NCBI GenBank assembly: GCA_030835405.1
Contig: JAURPG010000004.1
Coordinates: 1-45,372, forward strand
Direction: 5' to 3'
Origin: Gammaproteobacteria bacterium
GTDB taxonomy: Bacteria > Pseudomonadota > Gammaproteobacteria > Eutrophobiales > Eutrophobiaceae
DNA: 45,372 bases
Under the pieces are notes generated by a model. The model did no database searches. It was not told the DNA's origin and worked only from the letters and a program-made list of their open reading frames with translations. The position numbers and the translations under genes were made by a program. Position 1 is the stretch's first letter. Each line of letters starts with the position of its first letter. This document shows, in pieces, positions 37,120 to 44,839 of this stretch.

Positions 37120-37140
37120 GTAAATATTCAACCAGTCTGA

Positions 37141-37178
37141 ACGGGCAGGCAGCATAGACTATCTGCCCGTTTTTTTTT
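37141..37178 (+). terminator. Intrinsic terminator after the DUF1552 gene
   Basis: ACGGGCAG (37141-37148) pairs with CTGCCCGT (37163-37170) across a 14-base loop, followed by an unbroken run of nine T (37170-37178). It begins 22 bases after the DUF1552 stop. Confidence 0.88.
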
Positions 37179-37570: not shown

Positions 37571-40297
37571 TTATTTAGATTGTTCTACCATGTCTGCCAG
37601 ACGTTTCCCCAGGATATAACTGATATTAAAATTGAGCTTGGCGACAATATTAGGAAAGTATTTCAGGTCCTTTTGTAATCTCTCATAATCGAATTTCAAT
37701 GCGGTCAAATCTGATTTTGCCCTTACATCAGCCGTTCGCTGGGTCTCACGGATATAACCAATTTCACCAAAAATCTGTCCACACCCCAACGTGGCCAAGA
37801 CATTATCCTGGCCATCATCACGGCGAATCACATCTGCCTCACCACTAAGTATTAGAAACATACTTCGTCCAGCGGTGTCCTGTTCTATTAAGAGTTCCCC
37901 CGCCTTGAACTCATGCAATTCAGAAATCAATATGGCCTTACGACGTTGATAGTCCGTCATGTTATGAAACAAGATACAGTTATCCAGGGAATCTTCGTCC
38001 AGTGACATGGCTAGTATCTGGTAGAGGCCCACCAGCCTTATCCTAGACATCAGGATCGGGGTAATTAACAGATTAGTCAGTATTGACAGTAATATAGTGG
38101 CTGTGATTAATGCACCGAATTGGGCAACCACGGTAAATTCTGACAGGGTGAGAATACTGAATCCCACTGAAAGGGCTATGGTGGATATTATCATGGAGGG
38201 GGCCACTTCATTTACGGCCGCATTGACTGCGCCGATAAAGTCTGATGACTTTCGACAATGTTCAATATAGCGGGTCAACAAGTGTATAGTACCGTCCACG
38301 GCCAGTGCCACAGCGATCACGCCCACCATCGCCGTACCAGGATTGAGAGGAATATTTAATAATCCCATTACCCCAAACATTATGATCACAGGCACAACAG
38401 CAGGTATCAATGCGATCACACCACCTTTATAAGAAGTGAATAAAATAGAGACAATAATAAAAATCAACGTTACCAGTATCGCAAAACTGTTCACCTGGGC
38501 ATGTTTCAGGTTTTCTGCGGCCTGATGCACCATGAGGTTTTTCCCCACTACTGTTGAGACCAGTTCAGCACCAGCAAACTGACTAACAACCCCCTCAAGT
38601 TCGCTGATATAGTCATTTAACAGTCTTGAATCATTAATATTATGCCTGACAATAATATTGGCCCGACTGTAATCCTGGCTGACATAATTCTCCAATTCAG
38701 ACCGGTGAAATAGCACCAGGTACTGGGCAACCAGTTGACGTGAACGGGGTAACGGCAGGCCCGGTTGTTCACCCTGAATCTCCTTGTGAACATACTTAAG
38801 AAGGTCCGAAAGTGATCGGCTGCTATCAAATACTTCCTGCTCTCGGACAAAATTCTGAATCAAAGACAACTTTTCTATGTTTCTGGGTTCGAGAAATGCC
38901 TTTTCAGAATTGGATGCCAGGGTGATAAAAAATGAATGTACACCAGATAAATCCTCGTGTAAGCGTTCATGGTCCTGCATTAATTCCTGATTGTCAGAGA
39001 AAAATAACAGTGGATCATTGGTCACGTAGAAAGTTGATGCATGGTAAAAGAAATAACCGCTGGCGATAAGAGTAAAAATTAAAACCACCCCGGCAAATCT
39101 ACCATGGGAATAACTGTAAGTTAAAATAAACTTGCCGGGATAACTGCCTTCTTCATCATTATTATTAACAAACCTGCCAGATGAGCGCTGATATATTCTT
39201 AATAAATCCGGTATCACTAATATAGATATTATTCCATGCACCAACATGGCAAATGTTGAGGCAATCGCAAAATCACGAATAATCCCAATTTCATTAAAAA
39301 CATTACTGGCAAATGCAATGGTGATAATTGAAATGGCCAACAGGAATGACAAGCCGGATTTTCTGGATATTTTTTTGATGATGTCTTCATGCGACAGGCC
39401 CGAATACTTCCTTAACCTTTTTAAATATGCAATTACAAGATGCATGGTGGTAAAAGCAGAAACAATAATGATCAGCAGGGGCAAAATAGTACTTAAAATA
39501 TTGATCGGCAAACCAAACCAGCCCTGCAAGCCAAACGTCCAAACTATGGCAATGGTTGAGGTGATAATTGGAATCACCGCTGCAAGCACGCTCCTCACGA
39601 AGATTAATATTAACACCAGTACCACCAGTGCAGACAGTGGACCAAGCAATATAAAGTCTTCCGCCAGCTGCGTTTTAAGCTCGTAGTTAAGTCTGGGTGT
39701 GCCTATTTGAATAAGATCCTGAAAATCTCCCCTGACCTTATCGAGTTCCGTTTCGATATCCTGATATATTTGCTCTTGAATATTCTGTGTTGCAACCTCA
39801 TCTTCCAGGGAGACGACTATAGCTGAGACCCGGCCATTGTCCGCAAAAAATGTATCAATAAAAAGTTGGTTTTGTAAAATTAAATTTCGAAGTGATGAAA
39901 TATCCAGCTCGTCATTCAACTCCCTATTTATAACCAGGCCAGACTCCAGCTCATTATCGACACGTTGCAATGTCCTTAGAGTAAACAGGCTTGATACAGA
40001 CTTCACCCCATCAACCTGTTCCAATGCGCTATGTAATCTATTTATAATCTGAAGTTTATCTAATGACCAGATATTCTCAGCTTCAATAAAGACATATACA
40101 TTTTCATCAGTGCCGAATTCTTCCAGTACCCGCTGATAGGCGAGTCTATCAGGGTCACTTGATGCGATAAGACTGTCCAGTCCGGTGTCGATGGGAATAT
40201 TCGGGATACCCGATCCCAGCAACAGGGTCAACGCAATAATGCTCAGCCAGACCAGTTGTCGATAACAGCTACCGAATAAATACAGAGCCTGCAGCAT
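37571..40297 (-). CDS. MMPL/RND-type transporter fused to a cyclic-nucleotide-binding domain
   Basis: A 908-residue inner-membrane protein. A first transmembrane helix (about 14-34) is followed by a large periplasmic domain (to about 215), a five- to six-helix cluster, a second periplasmic domain (about 420-600), and a second helix cluster to about 760 with VALAVDGTIHLLTRYIEH. The C-terminal 112 residues (from about 797) form a CRP-like cNMP-binding domain: FKAGELLIEQDTAGRSMF, then phosphate-binding cassette FGEIG (843-847) with the RTA Arg at 854. Last gene of the pqiABC unit; its ATG overlaps the preceding stop by one base (TAATG). Substrate is probably lipid or hydrophobic molecules, by family. 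Confidence 0.88.
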   Translation of the reverse strand: MLQALYLFGSCYRQLVWLSIIALTLLLGSGIPNIPIDTGLDSLIASSDPDRLAYQRVLEEFGTDENVYVFIEAENIWSLDKLQIINRLHSALEQVDGVKSVSSLFTLRTLQRVDNELESGLVINRELNDELDISSLRNLILQNQLFIDTFFADNGRVSAIVVSLEDEVATQNIQEQIYQDIETELDKVRGDFQDLIQIGTPRLNYELKTQLAEDFILLGPLSALVVLVLILIFVRSVLAAVIPIITSTIAIVWTFGLQGWFGLPINILSTILPLLIIIVSAFTTMHLVIAYLKRLRKYSGLSHEDIIKKISRKSGLSFLLAISIITIAFASNVFNEIGIIRDFAIASTFAMLVHGIISILVIPDLLRIYQRSSGRFVNNNDEEGSYPGKFILTYSYSHGRFAGVVLIFTLIASGYFFYHASTFYVTNDPLLFFSDNQELMQDHERLHEDLSGVHSFFITLASNSEKAFLEPRNIEKLSLIQNFVREQEVFDSSRSLSDLLKYVHKEIQGEQPGLPLPRSRQLVAQYLVLFHRSELENYVSQDYSRANIIVRHNINDSRLLNDYISELEGVVSQFAGAELVSTVVGKNLMVHQAAENLKHAQVNSFAILVTLIFIIVSILFTSYKGGVIALIPAVVPVIIMFGVMGLLNIPLNPGTAMVGVIAVALAVDGTIHLLTRYIEHCRKSSDFIGAVNAAVNEVAPSMIISTIALSVGFSILTLSEFTVVAQFGALITATILLSILTNLLITPILMSRIRLVGLYQILAMSLDEDSLDNCILFHNMTDYQRRKAILISELHEFKAGELLIEQDTAGRSMFLILSGEADVIRRDDGQDNVLATLGCGQIFGEIGYIRETQRTADVRAKSDLTALKFDYERLQKDLKYFPNIVAKLNFNISYILGKRLADMVEQSK

Positions 40298-41214
40298 TAT
40301 TTATGACCTCGATTTTGCGGAACTTTGACAATGGATTCATCAAAAGTATTTAAATTGGCGTCGATCAGTTCTGACTCAAGTTGTTCTTCTTCTGTGGGAC
40401 TTAAATCCAAAGGGGGTTTATTTTCGAACATCCAGTTTGCAGTAAATACTTTATTGGAAACAATACTACTGGATACCACTCTTTTATTTACTTTAATCAA
40501 GGTGCTATGGAGTTTTCTTCTGTCTATCATATAAAGCATGGCAGCATTTAGTACATTTTCAGAATTTTTATTTAAGTCATGCGTAGACAATTGTTTAATG
40601 ATCTTGCCATGTTGATCGTAAAAAATTGTTCGCGTGATAAACATATCATCCTGACAGACTTGGTGGGTCATTATCGGCAGAGAATCGTCCGAATTCTCAG
40701 CGTTTTCATAGACATCTATAACATAGTAATTAACCTCAGTTATTTTCCGGTCGGCCTGACGTACATATTCATAATTATCATTAAATATAAAACTGATCTG
40801 GCTGAGACTAAAATCCATGCCAAATAAACCTTCATTGTCATTCCATAAGCTCAGATGTTTTAACAACTCCCCGCTTGCAGGCAAATACAGATAGACCTTA
40901 GGCTCTGAGTCCATAACCTGTTCAACCAGAATGGCAACCCCTTCATATTCTTCAGGCTTATCAAAAACCAGCAAAAACTTAATCACATTATTATCTGAAA
41001 TGCGGGTAAATTTTCTTAACTGTCTGGTATCTCTGTGTCCCGATTGATCAGTTAGAATGGCAGAGATTTCTTCGTATACATATCGTTCAGCCTTCAGATT
41101 ATTTTTCACCGCATCCATAATATCCAGCGCGGTCAATTCCACCTCTCCCTGCGCGATAGCAGAGCTGGTAGTCAGCAGACTGACAAGTAACATTGACCAT
41201 TTAAACAGTTGCAT
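40297..41214 (-). CDS. LolA-like outer-membrane lipoprotein-sorting protein
   Basis: A 305-residue periplasmic protein with a signal peptide (cleavage near AIA-QGE, 22). The mature part resembles the LolA-like/outer membrane lipoprotein-sorting family (Pfam LolA_like) that is often paired with MMPL transporters: LTALDIMDAVKNNL near the start, DKPEEYEGVAILVE, LYLPASGELLKHL, then GMDFSLSQISFI. Such proteins have a concave hydrophobic beta-sheet for a lipid chain. It directly precedes the MMPL transporter (1-base overlap) and follows pqiC by 7 bases, so it is a likely soluble partner moving lipid between membranes. Confidence 0.82.
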   Translation of the reverse strand: MQLFKWSMLLVSLLTTSSAIAQGEVELTALDIMDAVKNNLKAERYVYEEISAILTDQSGHRDTRQLRKFTRISDNNVIKFLLVFDKPEEYEGVAILVEQVMDSEPKVYLYLPASGELLKHLSLWNDNEGLFGMDFSLSQISFIFNDNYEYVRQADRKITEVNYYVIDVYENAENSDDSLPIMTHQVCQDDMFITRTIFYDQHGKIIKQLSTHDLNKNSENVLNAAMLYMIDRRKLHSTLIKVNKRVVSSSIVSNKVFTANWMFENKPPLDLSPTEEEQLESELIDANLNTFDESIVKVPQNRGHK

Positions 41215-41221
41215 GCCTTAT

Positions 41222-41824
41222 TTACTCCCTGGGTATACTTTCCGCAACCAATTGAGCAAATTCCCCATAAAGTTCTCTCATGGCCAATACAATATTTTCA
41301 TAGTCCTCCATGACATATGTCTGATTACTGGTTAAAGAGGTGCTATGGGTGCTGATCTGCCCTTGATGATGGTTATCAAGGACCTGCCACATGGCGATCA
41401 ATGACACATAGCCATCATAATTACGTTCAAACTGTTCAATGTGAATTTGCAGGCGATAATCTGCGTTGGATAATGTGCGATTGATGGGCGTGCCAACATC
41501 ATTGGTCCCCAATAAACTGGAAAGGTTTTGCGCCATTGTCCGTAACAGGTTTTTCCGAAAATTGTCTCCCCATTGGTTATTTTCAGATAAATACAGCTGA
41601 TTTGAATTTCCCCGACTGATGATATTAAATCTTTCCAAGTACTGCGGAATATTGACATCCATAATTTCAATGACCAACTCGGAATCGTCACGGTTATCCG
41701 CAGTAAAATCCATGGGGTCAATCATAAAATAACGTATTGAGTTACTACTACCAGCACATCCTGTTAGTACACATATTATGTAAACTACCAATAAATGATT
41801 TTTATTTTTCATTATTCTTTCCAT
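41222..41824 (-). CDS. pqiC: PqiC-type lipoprotein (ABC-type transport auxiliary family)
   Basis: A 200-residue outer-membrane lipoprotein with lipobox LTGC (Cys22). The first mature motif IRYFMIDP is the usual start of the PqiC/ABC-type auxiliary lipoprotein family; the following pattern VIEIMDVNIPQYLER matches the family's VxV..PxxLdR motif. GGAG lies seven bases before the ATG at 41824. It starts 2 bases after pqiB. In E. coli PqiC forms a ring at the outer membrane around the PqiB tunnel. Confidence 0.88.
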   Translation of the reverse strand: MERIMKNKNHLLVVYIICVLTGCAGSSNSIRYFMIDPMDFTADNRDDSELVIEIMDVNIPQYLERFNIISRGNSNQLYLSENNQWGDNFRKNLLRTMAQNLSSLLGTNDVGTPINRTLSNADYRLQIHIEQFERNYDGYVSLIAMWQVLDNHHQGQISTHSTSLTSNQTYVMEDYENIVLAMRELYGEFAQLVAESIPRE

Positions 41825-41826
41825 AA

Positions 41827-43473
41827 CTATTCTCCGTCTCCATCCCGGCCAAATAACAGAGATTGGGGATTTCTTTCCAGGATCTCAACTAATGCCCTGA
41901 TGGAACGCGCTGTTTCTTCCAGTTCACTGGTTAATTGAATGACGTTATATTGCATGGGGGAATTGGGCTCGAGTATGTTGTTGGTTAAATCCAGCGTGGT
42001 ACGCAGATTTTGTAATACATCTCGCCCGGCAATAATGGTCTCATCGAGATTTGCCTCATCGACTGAACGTAATATATTCTTAAATGATTCCATGGATGCT
42101 TCCAGGTTAACCAGTGAGGCCTGGATCGCCGGTGAATTAAACAAGGAATTGGTTCCTTCCAGAGTCCCCAGCAATTCCCGGCCGATATCTTCCAGATTGA
42201 TAGTATCCAGTCGTGAGACAAAAGCCTCCAGTGAATTGGTAATGGACTCAATACTCGCAGAAGACACAGTAGGCATCTCCGGCACGGAATCATTGACGGC
42301 CACCAGTTCCATTGGCGCATCCGGGTTCATGATCAATTCGACATAGAGCTGACCTGTAATGAGACTGCCTAACTGCAAGCGTGCCCTTAAACCATTATGT
42401 ATCAGGTTAGAAATGGTGTCTTCTGAATCTGACAATCCGGTTTCATCCCTGAAAGCAATTCGCTCAGGTTCAATCTCAATTAACACCGGAATTAGAAAAC
42501 TTTGATCTTCACTATCATATTCCAGTCTGAAATCCAGGACTGAACCCACCTGTATCCCCCTGAACTCCACCGGTGCCCCTGGGCTCAAGCCCCGAACCGA
42601 ACTATCAAAGTAAGCAACGTAACTAATTTTACGGGTATACGCATTCTCATCCATGTCGCTGTAGCTGTTATGTAAAGTATAGACCAGGCCCTGTATATCC
42701 GTTGTTGTCTGCTCCAATGTCTCGGGGGTATCGAAGGTTATACCTCCAAAAATCATGCTTTTTACTGATTCAGTACGGACATTAACGCCGTTGGCAGAAA
42801 CGTCTACCTCCAAACCGCTAACATTCCAGAAACGGGTATTGCCCTGTACAAGCTGGTCAAAGGGATCATTTACAAAGATATGGATATAAACGCTTTCCCT
42901 GTCATTTGCCAACTCATACCCCAGGACCTCACCTGCCTGAATACCCTTGTAGTACACCGGAGAGCCAATATCGATTGACCCAAGCTTTTCTGCCATTAAC
43001 ACCATCCGTTGGCCAATCGTTTCAGACAACACAACCGGGGGATTTTCCAGCCCGACAAAATGAAACTGTGGGGCACCCTGACCGGGTTCAACAGAGATAT
43101 AGGCACCGGATATTATGGTCTCCAATCCTGACACTCCACTAAGGCTCAATTGCGGCCTGACCACCCAGAACTGGGTATTGCGTCTGAGGAATGAATCCAT
43201 CCCCTGGTTAAATCGTGCGCTGAGAATAACATGTGAAAAATCTTCACTGAACTCCATCCCTTCAATTACGCCGATATTGACATTCTTATATTTAATTCGT
43301 GTAGTCCCTACTTCAATCCCATCGGCAGTCAGGAAGCTAACGGTAGCCACCGGACCTTGTTCAGAGATGGTCTTAATGATTAACCACCCCCCTACCAGGG
43401 CAGTAATAATGGGAATTACCCAGACCATGGAAATACCCGAGCGGTGTTCAATTTTTGGAGACGATATTTCCAT
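41827..43473 (-). CDS. pqiB: PqiB, MCE-domain tunnel protein
   Basis: A 548-residue protein, near the E. coli length. One N-terminal transmembrane helix (about 16-36) is followed by three MCE/MlaD domains: 45-140 (VATVSFLTADGIEVGTTRIKYK), 160-225 (GSIDIGSPVYYKGIQAGEVLG) and 285-375 (SVRGLSPGAPVEFRGIQVGSVL). A long helical C-terminal region (about 400-530) should form the needle. Hexamers of such proteins make a lipid tunnel across the periplasm. Its ATG shares one base with the pqiA stop (TAATG). Confidence 0.94.
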   Translation of the reverse strand: MEISSPKIEHRSGISMVWVIPIITALVGGWLIIKTISEQGPVATVSFLTADGIEVGTTRIKYKNVNIGVIEGMEFSEDFSHVILSARFNQGMDSFLRRNTQFWVVRPQLSLSGVSGLETIISGAYISVEPGQGAPQFHFVGLENPPVVLSETIGQRMVLMAEKLGSIDIGSPVYYKGIQAGEVLGYELANDRESVYIHIFVNDPFDQLVQGNTRFWNVSGLEVDVSANGVNVRTESVKSMIFGGITFDTPETLEQTTTDIQGLVYTLHNSYSDMDENAYTRKISYVAYFDSSVRGLSPGAPVEFRGIQVGSVLDFRLEYDSEDQSFLIPVLIEIEPERIAFRDETGLSDSEDTISNLIHNGLRARLQLGSLITGQLYVELIMNPDAPMELVAVNDSVPEMPTVSSASIESITNSLEAFVSRLDTINLEDIGRELLGTLEGTNSLFNSPAIQASLVNLEASMESFKNILRSVDEANLDETIIAGRDVLQNLRTTLDLTNNILEPNSPMQYNVIQLTSELEETARSIRALVEILERNPQSLLFGRDGDGE

Positions 43474-44705
43474 TACTCACTCACCCTGTTGTCATCTTGT
43501 GGGTTTGCACCATCCCAGATGAGCCGTGGGTCAAAACTGTGTGCAGCAAACATGGTTACCACGACAACTCCTGCAAAAAAAGATGCGCCTATCCCCGGTC
43601 GTATGGTGGACAAGACATCGAGGCTGACCAGCGCCGAGAGAATACCCACCAGAAAAATGTCCACCATGGACCATGCGCCAACAGTTTCAGTAATGCGGTA
43701 AAGGACAGTCCTGTCTTTGGGCCGCCATTTAGAACCGTTTTGTACTGAGACTAACAGAAATACGAGGATCATCAATTTCATGACGGGAATGACGATACTG
43801 GCCACAAAGACAATCATGGCCAGCCCCCACATACCCCCTTCGATAAGATGTAATACTCCACTCATGATAGTACTGGGCTCACCCTGACCAAAACGAATAA
43901 CGGTCATGACCGGATAAAGATTTGCCGGAATAATCAGGATGGTCGCAGTCATTACCAATGCCCATGTCCTGGTAATACTGTCTACCTTTCTACGGTGAAT
44001 GGGGGCTTCACACCGGGGGCATTCTTCCAGTCCTGGTTTCGCACAGGTAAACATTCCACAGGTGTGACAATTCATCAGGCGTTCCGGTTCAGATAAATCC
44101 GGTGATTGATAGTCAAAATGCTCCCATATCGCTTCAGGATCAAAATTGGCACGGGCCGCGGCAAAGGCCACCAGCAGCCCCACCAGGGCATATAGTGATG
44201 GTCCGGCAATGACATTGGCCAGATCTTGAAGTTTTACAATGGAAATTAAGACACCAAGCATAAAAACACTCACCAGGCTCCAGGGATTAATGGCTTCTAC
44301 CAGCCTGAAAACCAGGCCCATGGCCGGTGGTACCATACCCAGTCTCAGCGGTATCAACAAATACAACATACCGATAATACTAATAAACGGAAATCCAATG
44401 CTGGTAAAAAAAATCAGGATAGCCAAATCAGGCATCCCCATCTGGTACATGGCCAGTCCACCTGAAAGTAATATATTTTCTTCCACCCGACCACCAAGCT
44501 CCAGGGACAGGAACGGATAAACATTGGCGAGGATGAATAACATCAGTGCAGTCAGGTACAGGGCAATACCACGGTCAAGGCTGTTTTGCACATGCCGATA
44601 AAGTTCAGAACCACACTGCGTACAACTGGCCTTACCCGAGCCCGCGATAGGTTCATAGTGGTATAACTGGTCACATTCGTGACACGCGATAATTTTCCCC
44701 TTCAT
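43473..44705 (-). CDS. pqiA: PqiA, paraquat-inducible membrane protein A
   Basis: About 410 residues, close to the E. coli PqiA length. Two repeated halves each start with a Cys4 zinc-ribbon: CHECDQLYHYEP..CTQCGSEL and CHTCGMFTCAKPG..CPRCEAPI, followed by four transmembrane segments each. Conserved stretches YLTALMLFILANVYPFLSLEL and WALVMTATILIIPANLYPVMT match. ATG at 44705 is preferred; a GTG four codons upstream (44717) is the alternative. First gene of the operon, so its promoter should lie in 44706-44839, where I see no clear one. Confidence 0.93.
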   Translation of the reverse strand: MKGKIIACHECDQLYHYEPIAGSGKASCTQCGSELYRHVQNSLDRGIALYLTALMLFILANVYPFLSLELGGRVEENILLSGGLAMYQMGMPDLAILIFFTSIGFPFISIIGMLYLLIPLRLGMVPPAMGLVFRLVEAINPWSLVSVFMLGVLISIVKLQDLANVIAGPSLYALVGLLVAFAAARANFDPEAIWEHFDYQSPDLSEPERLMNCHTCGMFTCAKPGLEECPRCEAPIHRRKVDSITRTWALVMTATILIIPANLYPVMTVIRFGQGEPSTIMSGVLHLIEGGMWGLAMIVFVASIVIPVMKLMILVFLLVSVQNGSKWRPKDRTVLYRITETVGAWSMVDIFLVGILSALVSLDVLSTIRPGIGASFFAGVVVVTMFAAHSFDPRLIWDGANPQDDNRVSE

Positions 44706-44839
44706 GTTCAATGACACAACACAATCCCGATATTTTTGTTGTTATATTGATATCTTCCCCAAAATCAAATTCTGCCCACCCAGACACAAAAAGCCAAGCA
44801 GTTTAAGTGGATTTTCTGGGTTAAAATCGCTGAGAATGA

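Follow-up and report, generated by a model that had tools for sequence, protein, structure and literature searches.

PqiABC of Escherichia coli (5uvn, 8q2c) is encoded by three genes only. On the minus strand at 37571-44705 of the window, which is the whole 45,372-nucleotide stretch analysed here (contig JAURPG010000004.1 of a gammaproteobacterium of the Eutrophobiaceae), the same three genes occur in the same order, again with a three-MCE PqiB and a lipoprotein PqiC. The operon adds a LolA-like carrier and an RND transporter of the MMPL type that carries a cyclic-nucleotide-binding domain (CNBD), giving the gene order pqiA-pqiB-pqiC-LolA_like-MMPL. The window's PqiB also differs from the E. 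coli system in scoring under the equivalog cut-off and in belonging to a separate, mostly MMPL-linked clade. We propose, at a probability of about 0.5, that the five genes would encode one envelope lipid-transfer system, in which a PqiABC bridge is joined by an accessory LolA-like/MMPL module switched by a cyclic nucleotide.

The added parts have described counterparts. Pairs of LolA_like (PF17131)/DUF1329 and MMPL genes likewise place a periplasmic LolA-fold protein next to an MMPL transporter, but in ordinary pairs the transporter measures about 780 amino acids (aa), is 20-25% identical, lacks a CNBD and does not lie beside pqi. HpnN, MmpL3/4/5, NPC1 and Patched share the fold of the window's MMPL protein, whose copy lacks the acids of transmembrane helix 4 (TM4). 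The GE...R[TS]A core of the CNBD is common to the CRP, PKA-R and PKG domains and to the SthK channel; unlike these, the window's domain is fused to an RND transporter. To our knowledge, no C-terminal CRP/PKG-type domain is known in HpnN, MmpL3/4/5, NPC1, Patched or BstA. The chimeric Mla-Pqi system Mpc of Brucella likewise represents a natural rewiring of Pqi parts within one lipid bridge; Mpc joins Mla and Pqi features, whereas the part added in the window's operon is an RND-LolA module (PMC12436622). No description of the five-gene operon or of the MMPL-CNBD fusion was found in the open-access literature, a search with most subscription journals outside its reach.

Composition and recurrence of the five-gene locus

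The sequence-only reading had named the five genes and described them as packed with 1-base overlaps or gaps of 2-7 bases. Pfam and NCBIfam agree with the names, and the packing is exact to the base, with junctions of -1, +2, +7 and -1 bases in gene order (minus denoting overlap; Table 1).

Table 1. Coordinates of the genes, domains and motifs discussed (TM, transmembrane helix).
Feature	Position	Strand	Description
pqiA	43473..44705	-	PqiA/LetA-family inner-membrane protein, 410 aa from ATG; PF04403 E 9.1e-95
pqiB	41827..43473	-	Periplasmic tunnel protein, three MCE domains, 548 aa; PF02470 in three stretches
pqiC	41222..41824	-	Outer-membrane lipoprotein, 200 aa; PF03886 E 7e-27; PqiC 8q2c E 7.8e-10
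LolA-like periplasmic carrier	40297..41214	-	305 aa; PF17131 E 1e-19
MMPL/HAE3-type RND transporter	37571..40297	-	908 aa; PF03176 (2 stretches), TIGR00921, PF00027
TM4 motif position	39440..39460	-	MMPL aa 280-286; SAFTTMH here, GSTEDTH in most relatives
TM10 Asp668 (VDGTIH)	38294..38296	-	Retained half of presumed proton relay
CNBD	37670..37915	-	MMPL aa 795-876; PF00027 (cNMP_binding) E 1.2e-18
Phosphate-binding-cassette-like stretch	37712..37771	-	MMPL aa 843-862; FGEIGYIRETQRTADVRAKS

More specifically, PqiA exceeds the cut-off of TIGR00155 (290.8 bits), with a GTG at 44717 as a possible alternative start, and PqiB matches E. coli PqiB (5uvn, E 1.5e-78) as well as YebT/LetB, reaching E 2e-134 and 449 bits against the NCBIfam PqiB model, whose equivalog cut-off is 525. 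PqiC carries the lipobox LTGC, as read from the sequence, and the operon-like run of pqiA, three-MCE pqiB and lipoprotein pqiC is that of a PqiABC-type MCE system. The next protein combines a LolA fold with a signal peptide and lacks a Cys/lipobox, as in LolA-like carriers of PF17131. The MMPL protein matches TIGR00921 under that model's own cut-off and the BstA profile weakly. Promoter-like sites (21, against a shuffle mean of 21.9) and terminator-like sites numbered at or under the shuffle means and were uninformative as to internal promoters or terminators. At 37140-37175, a GC-rich inverted repeat followed by a T run lies 3' of a plus-strand DUF1552 gene; it resembles an intrinsic terminator and faces the end of the MMPL gene.

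To follow the locus through related genomes, a near survey covered 58 relatives, including the window's family. A full PqiB was found in 17 family genomes, all 17 with a strong LolA-like match on the same contig; 16 also have an MMPL match, and the contig of the 17th stops before the MMPL position. No strong LolA-like match without PqiB was found among the family members examined. The tight packing is not due to chance, because related loci keep short junctions (medians -1, -1, +1 and -4 bp) while the flanking genes vary outside the window's genus.

A far scan with an MMPL-CNBD alignment as query, using one genome per species for about 85,000 species, yielded 80 loci. Complete, collinear, one-strand sets of all five genes were present in 51 of the 62 loci with at least 4.4 kb of upstream sequence and came from several phyla, a proportion that is no frequency because loci were selected by similarity to linked members; the remainder are Pqi-less pairs and flipped or damaged loci. 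The other 18 of the 80 are truncated by contig ends, most of them showing whichever genes fit and one (L142) with pqi flipped. A class sample of 369 genomes added four more five-gene loci, and its seven strong LolA-like matches all lie in such loci. An association unique to this genome is thereby refuted, and accidental neighbourhood is ruled out by the recurrence within the family and across phyla. Three genomes (G010, G014, G022) hold an extra LolA_like-MMPL pair without a CNBD on another contig, and only the CNBD-bearing pair adjoins pqi.

The direction of the association was read from an independent phylum sample of 398 genomes (MMPL-CNBD at E<=1e-150; PqiB at E<=1e-60, which may include LetB-like proteins). 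A PqiB-like protein is encoded in 178 of them (45%) and MMPL-CNBD in 20, all 20 of which also hold PqiB. At a base rate of 0.45, this co-occurrence has a chance of about 1e-7 on the assumption of independent genomes, which genomes are not. Among the 20, 12 loci are collinear, four are flipped within about 5 kb (G430, G481, G526, G553), one is cut by a contig end and three have the two loci apart. About 158 of the 178 PqiB genomes (nearly 90%) lack MMPL-CNBD. The dependence is one-way: the MMPL-CNBD pair is nearly always found with Pqi, and Pqi is usually found without the pair.

A PqiB tree of 92 rows places 58 of the 61 MMPL-linked PqiBs in one clade together with only four unlinked rows, and the linked/unlinked label changes 5 times on the tree against 26.1 when shuffled. 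The MMPL-CNBD/LolA-like pair is an add-on to this single clade; as a general energy source for Pqi it is ruled out, since so many PqiB genomes do without it. Pairwise distances correlate at r 0.90 between LolA-like and MMPL proteins, at 0.80 between PqiB and MMPL, and at 0.70-0.80 between PqiB and either partner. Furthermore, the five-gene unit appears to have moved whole between Gammaproteobacteria and Nitrospinota, since for all five genes the Nitrospinota operons L150 and L182 are closest to the same gammaproteobacterial loci (L120, L124, L172, L179). The pair itself, judged from its branching, may be older than its link to Pqi, because Pqi-less LolA-MMPL(CNBD) pairs (Thalassospira, Terasakiella, Vreelandella, Sulfurimonas) form the most divergent branches of a tree whose root is not fixed.

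Several loci deserve separate mention. Two come from metagenome-assembled genomes (MAGs) whose titles look mislabelled: L183, titled Klebsiella pneumoniae, has an operon that groups with the window's genus, and that of L166, titled Bordetella parapertussis, groups with betaproteobacteria. In genome G051, a 1051-aa multi-MCE protein of the LetB/YebT type (L099:8125-11280) lies downstream of a half-length PqiA match, and elsewhere the genome encodes two distant relatives of the MMPL protein that are as long as its CNBD-bearing forms. A single 1041-aa open reading frame (ORF) at L160:9218-12343 encodes an almost complete LolA-like protein fused directly to an MMPL protein that is about 95 residues short at its N terminus, where TM1 would lie. 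This fusion was not used as a sign of contact, as it may reflect a deletion or an assembly error, with TM1 missing.

The transporter, its nucleotide-binding-type domain and the carrier

The CNBD had been overlooked by the sequence-only reading. Its sequence matches in the Protein Data Bank are cGMP-dependent kinases, PKA regulatory subunits and CRP, and the 12 predicted TM helices of the transporter place it in the cytosol. The phosphate-binding-cassette-like stretch contains the Glu and Arg typical of a cyclic-nucleotide-binding domain, and none of the 55 homologues, Pqi-less members included, deviates at G844, E845 or R854. Conservation of the CNBD between the window's lineage and relatives is 0.59, against 0.54 among the relatives themselves; for TM2-6 the corresponding values are 0.42 and 0.52. 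Conservation in the window's lineage thus lies under the average in TM1-6 and over it in the CNBD. A cyclic-nucleotide signal could exist, given the class III cyclases of the window's genome.

We further compared the window with an 80% identical relative. Synonymous sites were saturated, which limits the comparison between regions to the proportion of nonsynonymous differences (pN); pqiA does not enter it, its copy in the relative being split. Purifying selection acts on all genes compared, and decay of the MMPL gene in the window's genus was rejected, as pN lies far below its synonymous counterpart (pS) in every one. Within the MMPL protein, pN is lowest in the CNBD (0.051, against 0.129-0.180 in TM1-6). 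The low pN overall and its minimum in the CNBD indicate that the protein is maintained, its regulatory end most of all; by these measures, constraint within the MMPL protein of the window's genus is strongest in the CNBD. The nearest relative, G002, has pqiA as two overlapping ORFs (L100:9798-10929), and pqiA is likewise broken up at several Pqi loci of the unlinked kind (e.g. L283, L287).

The AlphaFold2 model of the MMPL protein (predicted local distance difference test, pLDDT, 84.2) resembles MmpL4/5/3, NPC1, HpnN and Patched (5khn, 9dp6, 7nvh, 6w5r, 6oeu) and shows the 12-TM fold with two periplasmic loops of MMPL/HAE3 RND proteins. In RND transporters, acids in TM4 and TM10 form a proton relay. 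The TM4 motif of the family aligns with the acids of Patched TM4 GVGVDD, and Asp668 with the acid of Patched TM10 GVEFTVH. Most Pqi-linked relatives keep both GSTEDTH in TM4 and DGTIH in TM10. In the window's copy, the E-D of TM4 has become T-T and Asp668 is kept; SAFTTMH is shared with the nearest relative, and a third species of the genus has AATGNIQ. TM4 acids are also altered in five betaproteobacterial-type sequences, with none in L178, E without D in L168, L173 and L188, and Q in L189. The pqi genes are still in place where these acids are lost or weakened. Membership of the RND fold stands for the window's MMPL protein, but the claim of a proton pump does not stand for this copy.

The model of the LolA-like protein (pLDDT 87.4) has 3bk5, Porphyromonas gingivalis LolA3 (9tp6) and DUF1329 (4z48) as its nearest folds, and canonical LolA is not the nearest. 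LolA3 of P. gingivalis bound the host LolB only very weakly (PMC13103446). The cargo is probably lipid, given that the MMPL model matches mostly lipid and sterol carriers. Two Pqi-less LolA-MMPL(CNBD) pairs adjoin genes of the lipid-synthesis type, a ketoacyl synthase in Terasakiella (L190:6453-9944) and acyltransferase and AMP-binding enzyme genes in Vreelandella (L192:9085-14516), which hints at a fatty-acyl cargo. No Pfam match was obtained for the genes that immediately follow Pqi-less pairs in Thalassospira, Sulfurimonas and one alphaproteobacterium, so that no replacement for PqiC can be named. Such no-Pfam genes 3' of the pairs (L177:12798-14186, L180:12796-13479, L187:12718-14031) are candidate outer-membrane partners in place of PqiC.

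A candidate lipid-transfer system and competing explanations

In the proposed system, PqiABC would bridge the inner and outer membranes, with PqiA in the inner membrane, PqiB as the MCE tunnel and PqiC as the outer-membrane ring. The MMPL protein would pick up its cargo, a lipid or another hydrophobic molecule, on the outer side of the inner membrane. The LolA-like protein would shield this cargo in the periplasm and hand it to, or receive it from, the Pqi bridge. Binding of cAMP or cGMP to the CNBD would turn the LolA-like/MMPL module on or off. In most relatives, an MMPL protein with both TM4 and TM10 acids would probably be proton-driven; in the window's genus, because the TM4 acids are lost, a nucleotide-gated subunit with a lipid-binding or regulatory role is more likely there than a canonical proton pump. 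We infer the physical contact, substrate, transport direction, nucleotide binding, gating and energy use in this scheme. A bolder form, a second-messenger-gated inter-membrane lipid bridge in which cAMP or cGMP, read by the RND-fused domain, controls lipid flow through the MCE tunnel, is offered tentatively and is rather doubtful. Several points weigh against the proposal as a whole. Its halves are separable, as most PqiABC loci lack the LolA-MMPL pair and Pqi-less pairs occur in the four genera named above and in one nitrospinian MAG. Co-regulation in one operon could explain the linkage without physical contact, and some nucleotide-binding-type domains of this kind bind other ligands or none.

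The sequence-only reading had suggested a single envelope machine in which the MMPL part could power or feed the PqiB tunnel. Of this idea, one functional unit holds up, favoured by conservation across phyla, by the proximity kept in flipped loci and by the apparent joint transfer. A proton-driven engine would suit a PqiABC without a known energy source, for which Cooper et al. (2024, PMC10897342) name three options, namely passive action of PqiA, an ATPase yet to be identified and the proton motive force (PMF), and the acids of TM4 and TM10 kept in most Pqi-linked relatives would supply the relay. However, the three species of the window's genus have lost the TM4 acids and the betaproteobacterial-type branch has weakened or lost them with pqi still there, and the large majority of PqiB genomes show that Pqi can in general do without this MMPL protein. 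As a whole, such an engine is improbable; it is possible for most relatives and unlikely in its usual form for the window's genome, where a lipid feeder or regulator gated by a nucleotide suits better.

The loss of the TM4 acids, the shift of conservation from TM2-6 towards the CNBD and the minimum of pN there would also suit an MMPL protein that, in the window's genus, has turned into a non-transporting sensor akin to some eukaryotic RND relatives and does no more than gate PqiA/PqiB, with lipid and cyclic nucleotide as its ligands. Yet the protein keeps Asp668 and TM8-12, and its LolA-like partner is still present, suggesting continued transport, and we regard a pure sensor as unlikely. Alternatively, PqiABC and a LolA-MMPL exporter could be separate lipid systems that share a promoter, answer the same envelope signal and never touch. 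Each half does occur without the other, and the tighter correlation of LolA-like and MMPL distances than of either with PqiB is what joined modules would give. Against such independence, the proximity persists in the four flipped arrangements, which cannot share one polycistron, PqiB is present in all MMPL-CNBD genomes even where the loci lie apart, and the linked PqiBs form a clade. We consider two separate systems rather unlikely.

Meaning for Pqi-type lipid bridges

On how lipid bridges of the PqiABC/LetAB type are energised and controlled, passive flow, an as yet unidentified ATPase and the PMF all stand as options (PMC10897342). The operon described here naturally couples a Pqi bridge to a candidate lipid feeder and a candidate control switch. 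Because some lineages lost the TM4 acids, half of the presumed proton relay, and kept the nucleotide domain, they provide ready-made variants with which energy could be separated from regulation.

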